A stretch of DNA of 64,000 bases from contig CAKTPV010000006.1 of assembly GCA_934591815.1 (NCBI GenBank), positions 43,204 through 107,203 of the forward strand, in the 5' to 3' direction. Under the pieces are notes generated by a model that saw nothing but the letters and a program-made list of their open reading frames with translations, made no database searches and was not told the DNA's origin. The translations under genes and the position numbers were made by a program. Origin of the DNA: an uncultured Oscillospiraceae bacterium. Lineage in GTDB: Bacteria; Bacillota; Clostridia; Oscillospirales; Oscillospiraceae. Below are positions 5,542 to 47,342 of the stretch, piece after piece (position 1 is the stretch's first letter; each line of letters starts with the position of its first letter).

Positions 5542-6351
5542 ATGAAAAAGCTTCTTGCAATGCTGCTGGCGCTGGGCATGATGATGAGCCTTGCGGCCTG
5601 CGGCGAACAAAAGGACGACACAGACACACCGGATGACGCAGATACCCAGACGGAGATCACCTACGCCGTGGAGGCTGGCTCCGCCGGCGAGGAGGTCGCG
5701 CTGGCCAACGGCTTCAAGACCGTTTCCGTCGGCTCTCAGGCCAATGCACTGATGGAGGTGGACGCCGGTACGGCGGACGCCGCGATCATCGACCTGCTGA
5801 TGGCGGGCGCCATGGTGGGTGAAAACACCAGCTATCCCGACCTGAAGGTCACCGACCAGAAGCTGAACTCCGAGCTGTACGGCGTGGGCTGCCGCAAGGG
5901 CAGCGATCTGGCCTCCTTCATCAACAGCGTTATGGCTGACGCCTATGCCGACGGCACCATGGTGGAGCTGGCCAAGACCTACGGCGTGCAGGAGGCTCTG
6001 GTGGAGCAGCCCGCCAGCGAGTTCACCGCCTCCGCATCCGGCAGCGATGTGCAGTACATCAAGGACAAGGGCAAGCTGGTGGTAGGCATCACCGAGTTTG
6101 AGCCTATGGACTATAAGGATGCAAACGGCGAGTGGATCGGCTTCGATGCCGACATGGCCAAGCTGGTCGCCGAGAAGCTTGGCGTCGCGGTGGAGTTCCA
6201 GATCATCAACTGGGATATGAAGGTGGAGGAGCTGGACGTCAAGCAGATCGACTGCGTGTGGAACGGCATGACCCTGACCGACGGCGTACAGGCGGCTATG
6301 GAATGCACCAACGCCTACTGTGAGAACGCACAGGTAGTCGTCACCAAGTAA
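5542..6351 (+). CDS. Amino-acid-type ABC substrate-binding lipoprotein with circularly permuted lobes
   Basis: 269 residues. The start is ATG 5542 behind GGAGGT at 7 nt. A lipoprotein signal ends in LAAC (Cys20). The sequence belongs to the periplasmic binding-protein family SBP_bac_3, but the halves are in reverse order. Residues about 38-160 match the usual second half (VEAGSAGEE, DAGTADAAIIDLL, LYGVGCRKGSD, ADGTMVELAKTYG). Residues about 175-269 match the usual first half (KGKLVVGITEFEPMDY, GFDADMAKLVAEKLGV, DCVWNGMTLT), ending where the hinge crossover normally occurs. A linker rich in Ala, Ser and Glu joins them. The Arg that normally follows the MTxT segment and binds the ligand carboxylate is replaced (MTLTDGVQ), while the second-lobe Asp (AAIID) is kept. 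It is the first gene of an operon with permease and ATPase, so it is likely functional; the ligand is unknown. Confidence 0.85.
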   Translation: MKKLLAMLLALGMMMSLAACGEQKDDTDTPDDADTQTEITYAVEAGSAGEEVALANGFKTVSVGSQANALMEVDAGTADAAIIDLLMAGAMVGENTSYPDLKVTDQKLNSELYGVGCRKGSDLASFINSVMADAYADGTMVELAKTYGVQEALVEQPASEFTASASGSDVQYIKDKGKLVVGITEFEPMDYKDANGEWIGFDADMAKLVAEKLGVAVEFQIINWDMKVEELDVKQIDCVWNGMTLTDGVQAAMECTNAYCENAQVVVTK

Positions 6352-6456: not shown

Positions 6457-7113
6457 ATGTTTTGGACTGTCACACTCTCCCTGCTGGCCGGTATGGGACA
6501 GCTTTTGAAGCTGTTCTTCCTGACGCTGCTTTTCTCCCTGCCGCTGGGACTTCTCATCGCCTTCGCCCTGCGCAGCCGGTGCAAGCCGGTGAGCTGGCTA
6601 TTCAACGTGATCGTCTGGATCATCCGCGGTACGCCGCTGATGCTCCAGCTCATCATCATCTTTTACGGCCCCGGTAAGTGGTTTCACTTTAACCTGTGGG
6701 GGCAGTTCGCCGACGGGCGCATGGCGGCCTGCGTCATCGCCTTCGTCATCAACTACGCCTGCTATTTCGCTGTGATCTACAAGGGCGGCATTGAGAGTGT
6801 GCCGGTGGGGCAGCAGGAGGCCGGGCAGGTGCTGGGCATGACCAAGTGGCAGATCTTCTTCAAGGTCACGCTGCTGCAAATGGTCAAACGCATCGTCCCC
6901 CCCATGTCCAATGAGGTCATTACGCTGGTGAAGGATACCTCCCTTGCCAAGACCATCTCCATCATGGAGCTGATCATGACCGGCGAGTCCTATATGAAAT
7001 CTGCCGGCATCGTCTGGCCCCTGTTTTACACGGCGGTGTTCTATCTGGCCTTTGTGGGCATTTTGACGCTGCTGTTCAACTACACGGAGCGCAAGCTCAG
7101 CTATTTCCGCTAA
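6457..7113 (+). CDS. Amino-acid ABC transporter permease
   Basis: 218 residues, HisM/GlnP-type inner-membrane permease with about five membrane segments (roughly 5-35, 48-68, 90-110, 125-145, 185-210). The EAA loop that contacts the ATPase is visible (EAGQVLGMTKWQIFFKV), as is the conserved start of the core (RGTPLMLQL). AAGGAG precedes the ATG. It would form the channel as a homodimer with the ATPase encoded 16 bp downstream, fed by the permuted binding protein upstream. Confidence 0.93.
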   Translation: MFWTVTLSLLAGMGQLLKLFFLTLLFSLPLGLLIAFALRSRCKPVSWLFNVIVWIIRGTPLMLQLIIIFYGPGKWFHFNLWGQFADGRMAACVIAFVINYACYFAVIYKGGIESVPVGQQEAGQVLGMTKWQIFFKVTLLQMVKRIVPPMSNEVITLVKDTSLAKTISIMELIMTGESYMKSAGIVWPLFYTAVFYLAFVGILTLLFNYTERKLSYFR

Positions 7114-7129: not shown

Positions 7130-7900
7130 ATGGCAATTTTGGACGTACAGCACATCGAAAAGCACTTTGGCGACACCCCGGTGCTGAAGGACATCAGCTT
7201 CTCTCTGGAGGAGGGACAGGCGCTGAGCATCATCGGCTCCTCCGGCAGCGGCAAGACCACGCTGCTGCGGTGCCTGAATTTCCTGGAGACGCCGGACAAG
7301 GGCGTCATCTCCGTCCGGGGCGAAAAGCTGTTTGACGCGGCGGAGCACGCCTCCCGCTCCGAAAGCGATATCCGCAAAAAACGGCTGCACTTCGGGCTGG
7401 TGTTCCAGAGCTTCAATCTGTTCCCGCAGTACACGGCGCTGCAAAATGTGACGCTGGCCCGGGAGCTGATGGCCAAGTCGGAGAAAACCGGCGAGAGCCA
7501 CGAGAGCATCGTCGCCGAGGGACGTCGGCTCCTGGAGGATATCGGGCTGGGGCAGCGGATGGACAACTACCCCCACCAGCTATCCGGCGGTCAGCAGCAG
7601 CGGGTAGCCATCGCACGGGCACTGGCTATGAAGCCTGATATCCTGTGCTTCGACGAGCCCACCAGCGCGCTGGACCCCGAATTGACCGGTGAGGTGCTGC
7701 GGGTCATCCGCGACCTTGCCGACCAGCACACCACCATGGTCATCGTCACCCATGAGATGGCCTTCGCCCGGGACGTAGCCGATCAGGTGATCTTCATGGA
7801 CGGCGGCGTGATCGTGGAGCAGGGCCCCGCCAAGGCGGTCATCGACCATCCCGCGCAGGAGCGCACCCGCCAATTTCTGGCGCGGTACAGTGAGATGTAA
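7130..7900 (+). CDS. Amino-acid ABC transporter ATP-binding protein
   Basis: 256 residues. It powers the importer of this operon. Motifs in order are Walker A GSSGSGKTT (about 33-41), Q-loop FQSFNLFPQ, signature LSGGQQQR, Walker B DILCFDEP and the H-loop VTHEM. These are typical of the GlnQ/HisP group. The start is ATG 7130; a GTG at 7121 overlaps the ribosome site. It is the last gene of the operon and is followed directly by a strong terminator. Confidence 0.95.
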   Translation: MAILDVQHIEKHFGDTPVLKDISFSLEEGQALSIIGSSGSGKTTLLRCLNFLETPDKGVISVRGEKLFDAAEHASRSESDIRKKRLHFGLVFQSFNLFPQYTALQNVTLARELMAKSEKTGESHESIVAEGRRLLEDIGLGQRMDNYPHQLSGGQQQRVAIARALAMKPDILCFDEPTSALDPELTGEVLRVIRDLADQHTTMVIVTHEMAFARDVADQVIFMDGGVIVEQGPAKAVIDHPAQERTRQFLARYSEM

Positions 7901-7952: not shown

Positions 7953-8316
7953 GGTGCGAGCAGGCCTATAAGCCGGGTTCTGTTTCGACAGTCATCTATC
8001 TAGGCGCACCGTTGCCGGTACGCTCAAGCCACCCCGGGAGCGGCCGGGCCGGCCATGCGCTCCCATACCGGTGTTGCTCCGAATAGAGTTTACAGCGACG
8101 GACGCTTTCACACGCCGTCGGGTGAGCTCTTACCTCACCTTTCCACCCTTACCCCGCGCCTCCTTGCGGAGGCGGACGAGGCGGTATATCTCTGTTGCAC
8201 TTTTCCTGAAGTCGCCTTCGGCGGGCGTTACCCGTTATTCTTGCCCTGTGGAGCCCGGACTTTCCTCATGAACAGGCTTTCGCCTTGTCCCCGCGACTGT
8301 CCAGCCTACTCGCATC
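7953..8316 (-). ncRNA. rnpB: RNase P RNA, bacterial type A
   Basis: On the minus strand the molecule begins with GCGAGTAGGC (P1 5' arm, 8304-8313) and ends with the pairing GCCTGCTCGC (7956-7965). The universal GAGGAAAGTCCGGGC block (P4 5' part) and the 3' block with ACAGAACCCGGCTTATAG are both present. It is the catalytic RNA that trims tRNA 5' ends. Ends are accurate to a few nucleotides because they are set from P1 pairing only. Confidence 0.95.
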
Positions 8317-45372: not shown

Positions 45373-45430
45373 ACGTCCATCAATTTGATACACCCGATGA
45401 GACACCCGGAATGTACAGACCGGATGCGGA

Positions 45431-45582
45431 GGGTACTCTGGAGAATCCCATTCAATTGGGTGCCGAAGGTGCAAGGCGCTGCTGCGCTGAATCTCTCAGG
45501 CAAAAGGACGGAGCTGACAAGTGATCTTTGCTTGCCCCCCTGACTTTCTCCAGAGTCGCTGTTCTACAGCGGCTCTATTTTT
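45431..45582 (+). promoter_or_regulatory. Single-aptamer glycine riboswitch with terminator
   Basis: The aptamer has the conserved GGTGCCGAAGGTGCAAG and CTGAATCTCTCAGGCAAAAGG blocks. P1 is CTCTG (45436-45440) with CGGAG (45509-45513). A 10-bp terminator (45552-45576) with a T-run follows. Its 5' arm overlaps TCTCCAGAG (45547-45555), the exact complement of the P1 region CTCTGGAGA (45436-45444). Glycine-bound P1 would free the terminator, so an OFF switch is predicted. Confidence 0.93.

Positions 45583-47266: not shown

Positions 47267-47342
<76 letters not shown>

Follow-up and report, generated by a model that had tools for sequence, protein, structure and literature searches.

Can a binding protein whose two halves stand in exchanged order fold and serve an ABC importer, and how did its gene come about? 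The question is raised by a gene at 5542..6351 of the window, by which we mean the whole stretch of 64,000 nucleotides that was analysed. The original prediction was that the usual C-terminal half of the SBP_bac_3 fold precedes the usual N-terminal half, and that the break falls at the first hinge crossover. The permuted order, its conservation, the operon, a confident structural model and a repeated origin are established here by computation. We consider it highly probable that the gene encodes a working, lipid-anchored, permuted binding protein (SBP) of a three-gene ABC importer, arisen by repeated duplication and loss in Clostridia.

The halves of the window protein are swapped at hinge 1

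The open reading frame (5542-6351, +) encodes 269 amino acids from an ATG start to a TAA stop, with GGAGG immediately 5' of it. Positions m1-234 below refer to an HMM of 234 positions made from 56 canonical relatives (the canonical HMM). The parts of the gene, and the two genes that follow it, are:

5542..5601, +, putative signal peptide with lipobox (MKKLLAMLLALGMMMSLAAC), recognised in the sequence; the lipid-anchor cysteine is residue 20
5611..6009, +, canonical C-terminal part (m103-234), now first; 133 residues, 152 bits with the canonical HMM
6010..6042, +, new linker of 11 residues from the old C-terminus to the old N-terminus, a gap in the canonical-HMM match
6043..6348, +, canonical N-terminal part (m1-102), now last; 182 bits; ends at hinge 1
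6349..6351, +, TAA stop, abutting the last lobe-1 strand
6457..7113, +, permease of the polar-amino-acid type (BPD_transp_1; Pfam E 3e-21)
7130..7900, +, ABC transporter ATPase (ABC_tran; Pfam E 2.5e-34)

A short linker separates the lipobox from the first of the two swapped blocks, which comprises lobe 2, hinge 2 and the C-terminal helices of lobe 1. On the longer mechanical ORF (start 5458), the HMM places m103-234 at residues 52-184 and m1-102 at residues 196-297. Among solved structures, the best phmmer target was 6svf_A, the ArgBP of T. maritima. Query residues 171-268 align with chain residues 4-102 (54 bits) and query residues 28-138 with 108-217 (45 bits); the order is swapped, and the C-terminal block of the window protein matches the start of the solved chain. 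The same search with L041, a canonical relative, gave a single colinear stretch. Hence, the split is not generated by the method. Pfam SBP_bac_3 (PF00497) matches residues 180-269 only, which correspond to positions 2-91 of the 132 in the profile (E 1.4e-24; 86.7 bits, with a cut-off of 26.4).

By the canonical HMM and phmmer, then, the window chain is a complete circular permutation cut at hinge 1. The protein matches SBP_bac_3 / cluster F in sequence, with both halves present and swapped, and departs from the canonical chain order, in which lobe 2 is inserted into lobe 1. No leftovers of the missing outer pieces were found in the 272 bases 5' or the 105 bases 3' of the gene.

The AlphaFold2 model of the window protein (pLDDT 91.7, pTM 0.84) has a predicted two-lobed Venus-flytrap fold, and its second half matches solved SBPs. 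In the tight matches to solved amino-acid-binding proteins, the C-terminal half of the model pairs with their start; for example, VIA-align superposes model residues 146-244 on residues 10-109 of 6det (1.3 Å rmsd, 99 residues). The longest alignments are to OpuAC chains, 196-197 residues at 4.3-4.8 Å. The top-scoring solved structure is 5jkq_B, PfVFT1 of Plasmodium falciparum, which is colinear with model residues 100-244 and spans the permuted junction. PfVFT1 may share part of the window's chain order. The predicted order of halves is confirmed by phmmer, the canonical HMM and the AlphaFold2 comparison, and the break is where it was expected, since the chain runs m103-234 then m1-102, as it does in the model. 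Neither a canonical order of the halves in the structure prediction nor an N-terminal half of another fold, the two outcomes named beforehand as contrary, arose.

The operon

The gene stands in an operon with a polar amino-acid type permease and an ATPase. NCBIfam places the permease closest to an ArtM-like model (E 2.9e-33) and the ATPase to a TcyN-like model (E 9.2e-95), each under the curated cut-off. The permease is probably a homodimer, because the operon has no other. The mechanical ORF of the ATPase begins at GTG 7121, and ATG 7130 is the likelier start. As a hint at the ligand, riboswitches gave nothing: none upstream of the operon scored above the Rfam thresholds when the whole window was scanned; only RNase P, one tRNA and one glycine riboswitch reached them. 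The RNase P class A RNA (7953-8312, -) lies just past the operon on the opposite strand, the glycine riboswitch aptamer at 45428-45521 (+) and the tRNA at 47267-47339 (+).

Close relatives carry both orders

All 8000 of the candidates scored in a protein search were relatives, giving at least 8000, of which 120 were listed. Among the matches listed, the closest full-length cluster (P0003) is 97% identical over 100% of the query and has the permuted order too; its 396 member sequences come from 213 contigs of up to 389 kb. A scan of species genomes gave 134 relatives, and the best 80 were 40 permuted (L001-L040) and 40 canonical (L041-L080). The homologue search that had been proposed thus finds both orders among close relatives. 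These come mostly from metagenome-assembled genomes, and the permuted order also occurs in records with strain titles, among them Roseburia porci (L011) and Evtepia gabavorous (L039). Permease and ATPase genes lie downstream in 40 of 40 permuted loci, so the operon context, on which the original prediction had relied for function, is conserved. Canonical relatives occupy the same kind of operon.

After rotation, the canonical proteins L042 and L041 are 68% and 67% identical to the window protein, which places it among circularly permuted SBPs: the same parts, rotated, with a canonical homologue recognisable at the sequence level. Comparison with four permuted relatives of the same order gave dN of 0.15-0.21 and dS of 0.65-1.02 (our own Nei-Gojobori script), which indicates purifying selection; a fifth pair, with canonical L041 (129 codons aligned), is saturated (dS infinite) and stands outside these ranges. 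In 11 genomes, the two orders of the window-like subfamily, canonical and permuted, never occurred together at E <= 1e-10. Two of the 11 (G003 and G009) hold three remoter matches, of 27-33% identity.

Four chain orders and their cut sites

Read against the canonical profile, the binding-protein ORFs fall into four orders: canonical, P1, P2 and P3. P1, which includes the window protein, is cut at hinge 1. In the set of 54 P1 chains left after dropping mislabelled and double-fetched rows, 51 end at m100-104, all 54 begin at or before m117, and 47 have a linker gap of 10-12 residues. P2 is cut near m173, near hinge 2, in the loop preceding the last strand of lobe 2; the cut of P3, near m133, follows the opening strand and helix of lobe 2. 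By our placement on the secondary structure of the AlphaFold2 model, none of the three cuts falls outside lobe 2 and its border. A topology rule gave raw counts of 78 canonical, 58 P1, 19 P2, 6 P3 and 9 unassigned, in which a tandem (L232) is counted among the 19 P2, and L226, by eye a P3, and a truncated L231 ORF among the 58 P1; some loci are present twice (L149 = L029, L096 = L236). Searched against solved structures, L132 (P2) and L225 (P3) show the same orders, the second stretch of L132 being weak (11.7 bits).

Several loci depart from the usual arrangement. Six have a second, divergent P2-like binding-protein ORF 3' of the ATPase of the first operon (L053 5644-7152, L060 6465-7262, L079 6364-7152, L230 104-994, L231 146-1033 and L233 1-867), with weak profile matches and some orders assigned by eye. 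The P2 protein L137 (102-1106, -) has an N-terminal hydrophobic helix without an obvious lipobox, and its genome (G028) has two more binding proteins, the P2 L136 and the P1 L245. At L247 (1444-3018, +) and L249 (1504-3084, +), a permuted glutamine-binding-like protein is fused in frame to a permease, such that the permuted C-terminus at hinge 1 runs into the membrane domain. L095 (1495-3045, +), the same locus as L148 of Roseburia porci, has another permuted binding protein and a permease; a stop lies inside the second half of the permuted protein, and the two are described as separate ORFs.

How common is the permuted protein? In the class of R. porci, 83 of 391 genomes match at E <= 1e-25 and a permuted protein is present in 21 of the 391, 19 as read on fetched loci and two (G003 and G378) as read on L011 and L149. 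In the family of E. gabavorous, 88 of 150 genomes match at E <= 1e-20 and 19 are permuted (14 read on loci, 5 by the junction rule alone); in the family of R. porci, 34 of 150 match and 7 are permuted (4 read on loci). The genome samples overlap. The junction rule accepts a match that starts at or before query residue 108 and ends at or after 263. All 20 loci that passed it and were fetched from the search of 391 genomes were permuted. The rule is imperfect, as it also flags the tandem duplicate G512 (L232). Rows starting at residues 130 and 144 turned out to be canonical (L235, L147).

The permuted glutamine-binding-like protein L236, used as the query, has matches at E <= 1e-40 in 29 of the 291 class genomes searched; P1 forms were read in 16 genomes and P2 in 4 (loci L243-L262), and four further genomes look P2. 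Hence, two subfamilies, window-like and glutamine-binding-like, have the same cut sites. The P2 query L132, run at E <= 1e-35 on 299 genomes of the phylum, found no additional P2; it matched six loci, four canonical and two P1.

The order has changed repeatedly

In a binding-protein tree with all sequences in one common order (232 columns, careful method; 51 rows kept of 158 after thinning at 72% identity), chain order changes 14 times, and the minimum possible is 3. For this tree, L232 and L226 received new labels, and eight ORFs were excluded, as were L095, L096 and L148. Well-supported branches alone give at least six changes of the P1 label, four of P2 and two of P3. AU tests rejected a single origin for all permuted proteins (p-AU 5e-33), for P1 (0.0026), for P2 (0.00017) and for P3 (0.015). 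These four groups were fixed by chain order beforehand; seven AU tests were run, and the three on post-hoc groups are excluded as evidence. An earlier binding-protein tree (78 of 136 rows) has 8 order changes, and a quick permease and ATPase tree (58 of 119 rows) has 11. In the weaker trees of each half alone, the rows nearest the window protein are the P1 rows L242 and L022 for both halves.

The partner-gene tree nests the canonical loci L041 and L163 in the P1 group of the window protein. The binding-protein tree puts L041 outside the P1 clade, as its sister, and L163 in another part of the tree. The half-length trees and the deep branches are poorly supported, there are long branches, and the quick trees carry SH-aLRT support only. 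The exact number of events is uncertain because of the weak half-length trees and deep branches and the position of L041 and L163 on the partner-gene tree. Independent rearrangements of this one protein, at three distinct cut points, seem to have taken place among the relatives.

A tandem gene in a relative

As the route to the permuted gene, a tandem duplication that later lost its outer halves had been suggested. Indirect support comes from a relative, L232 (3114-4787, -), in which one ORF of 558 amino acids encodes two canonical-order binding proteins in frame and in tandem (A-B-A-B). Between the copies, identity is 86% at the protein and 87% at the DNA level, and by eye the second has no signal peptide. 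Among nine permeases compared, that of L232 is nearest to L230 (67%), and among seven ATPases its ATPase is nearest to L233 (70%); L230 and L233 are both P2 operons. L232 is a candidate for the intermediate expected in permutation by duplication, and trimming the ends of an A-B-A-B gene could yield every order observed. We infer this route and no more than that, because the tandem locus is a single one.

Among the 120 listed homologues, 34 exceed 330 amino acids: 22 are B-A-B, 11 are A-B-A and one is B-A with other sequence (P0034). The 33 three-part proteins (for example P0001, P0002, P0048 and P0105) are on one or two contigs each, the longest of 11.5 kb. Three chosen pairs have identical runs of 100-115 residues in common, in which, by eye, one partner switches from canonical to permuted while its counterpart makes the reverse switch. 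We do not accept these proteins as real intermediates. Assembly has probably spliced them from canonical and permuted genes; possibly, they are real recombinants.

The missing arginine and the ligand

Position m82 we take to be that of the carboxylate-binding arginine, and m163 presumably that of the amino-group-binding aspartate. The original prediction noted that the arginine is replaced, and suggested from this that the ligand may be other than a standard alpha-amino acid. The replacement is real, as m82 is V in the window protein (MTLTDGV) and R in 6svf. It does not track the permutation: at >=50% identity to the window protein, all 48 canonical relatives have V or I at m82, and all 46 P1 relatives have V or T. 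Conversely, R is retained in 8 of 55 P1 rows, including L127-L129, L134, L140, L234 and L236. We therefore reject the idea that permutation caused the loss, which to judge by these alignments is a trait of the subfamily. It probably predates the window's permutation, because canonical and permuted relatives both have it. The aspartate at m163 is present in 55 of 55 P1 rows, the window protein among them. Of the two features of the alpha-amino-acid subset of cluster F, the window protein has thus lost one and kept the other. With the arginine that normally contacts the carboxylate replaced, the canonical pocket is no ground for presuming binding. The three operon proteins stay under the curated cut-offs of all the equivalog models listed for them (arginine, cystine, ectoine, glutamine and others), and we therefore name no ligand.

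Discussion

Could the swapped order be an artefact of assembly or annotation, with neighbouring or overlapping genes misjoined? The three-part A-B-A and B-A-B proteins show that misjoin-like sequences do exist on short metagenome contigs. Against this, the order is constant across the 213-contig cluster and the 40 species loci, strain-titled records included, the gene is under purifying selection, and its flanks are free of outer pieces. We reject an artefact, whose probability we consider negligible. A different history is a single ancient permutation, from which canonical copies were regained, or imported by gene replacement. The long branches, the SH-aLRT-only support and the placement of L041 and L163 leave room for gene replacement, and canonical loci within P1 on the partner-gene tree are what replacement or reversion predicts. 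The binding-protein tree argues against this history, since it rejects single origins of P1, P2, P3 and all permuted proteins and keeps both canonical loci out of P1. P2 and P3 differ in cut point and so need separate rearrangements in any case. We regard one ancient permutation as very unlikely, and return to repeated duplication and loss.

How would such a protein work? We propose that the permuted chain adopts the normal two-lobed type II (cluster F, SBP_bac_3) fold. It would start at hinge 1, build lobe 2, cross over once at hinge 2 and enter lobe 1; the 11-residue linker would then join the old C- and N-termini, and the chain would complete lobe 1 and end at hinge 1. Thus, each lobe would be one continuous stretch. 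The lipid anchor would depart from the hinge side of lobe 2 and not from lobe 1. For the window-type protein, ligand binding and transport are likewise our inference: ligand would be captured between the lobes and handed to the permease as in canonical relatives. The gene would have originated when a canonical gene was duplicated in tandem and in frame and then shed its outer pieces; this would have happened repeatedly in Clostridia, at three preferred cut sites. With one covalent crossover, lobe 2 could instead pack on lobe 1 of another chain, and the folded permutant might act as a domain-swapped dimer or via a different partner. The single crossover of P1, which the canonical HMM and the AlphaFold2 model point to, is compatible with this, and the available part of PMC9815098 reports that one of two engineered permuted type I halves is a segment-swapped dimer. 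Nonetheless, the single-chain model is confident across both lobes, the linker gap measures 10-12 residues in most P1 proteins, and an engineered lysine-binding protein cut at a hinge binds ligand, about 36-fold more weakly in a sensor construct, according to the available text of PMC5087393. A swapped dimer or a different partner therefore seems very unlikely, and we favour the single-chain, two-lobed protein.

The class names used here (type I and II, clusters B and F) follow in part PMC4990184 and PMC5087393. Canonical SBP_bac_3 / cluster F proteins (T. maritima ArgBP, 6svf and 4prs; AncQR, 4zv1) have both halves and a like fold, and they share with the window protein the permease and ATPase operon and the conserved Asp at m163. 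They differ in that the window protein is permuted at hinge 1 and has lost the m82 Arg, the latter being true of its close canonical relatives too.

Natural permutants have been described in other families. As far as the available text of PMC4990184 goes, Treponema pallidum Tp0684 / TpMglB-2 (“Type Ic”) is a natural permutant of a type I sugar-binding protein, reported to bind glucose with a conformational change, and its authors consider that tethering possibly favoured permutation. Like the window protein, it is natural, tethered and in an ABC operon, with relatives in Gram-positive gut bacteria; unlike it, it has a type I / cluster B sugar fold, is cut elsewhere and has a permuted part that shares just 13% identity with the canonical one, and that text describes one permuted order (PMC4990184). 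“Type Ic” proteins are type I / cluster B with a permuted N lobe, whereas the window protein matches cluster F, type II. The CPSARST paper, in its available part, gives permutation relationships among glycine-betaine-binding (2b4l, OpuAC; 1r9l and 1sw1, ProX), molybdate-binding and CysB structures (PMC2395249); the names OpuAC and ProX are from its reference list and from the structure matches of the window model. Those cases differ from ours in being found by structure comparison under 24% identity and in another family (PMC2395249). There are also engineered permutants. In the accessible text, cpLAO-BP has one interlobe linker cut and the old termini joined, and keeps lysine binding in weaker form (PMC5087393), and cpGltI is the engineered permuted GltI of the R-ncp-iGluSnFR sensor (PMC6335823). 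Both are permuted amino-acid-binding proteins, and the cut of cpLAO-BP is of the same kind as the window's; unlike the window protein, both are man-made, and cpLAO-BP has a flexible GGS linker (PMC5087393, PMC6335823).

No natural permuted SBP_bac_3 protein was found among the papers listed in searches of the open-access literature, a scope that does not show absence from print. As far as that search reaches, natural SBP_bac_3 permutants with close canonical relatives, several cuts, a repeated origin and a tandem relative are new. The published natural permutants found have, in the texts available, little identity to canonical counterparts, and for this reason their origin is argued from structure. 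Here, canonical identity of up to 68%, the same kind of operon, four orders and a tandem relative make the steps of permutation by duplication testable. The finding also carries a warning, since a domain model sees the permuted protein as a half-domain (Pfam 2-91 of 132). For biosensor design, it provides a set of cut sites accepted by selection; the natural permutation of a gut bacterium resembles the circular permutation made by protein engineers.

Why should these proteins be re-ordered so often? We tentatively suggest, while holding the idea somewhat more doubtful than not, that the amino-acid-type SBPs of Clostridia are a permutation hot spot, in which at least two subfamilies are cut at the same few lobe-2 and hinge sites, repeatedly, via fused tandems, and in which relocation of the anchor is possibly selected. 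If this is true, an anchor placed on lobe 2 or the hinge, and no longer on lobe 1, would alter the docking of the tethered protein on its permease.
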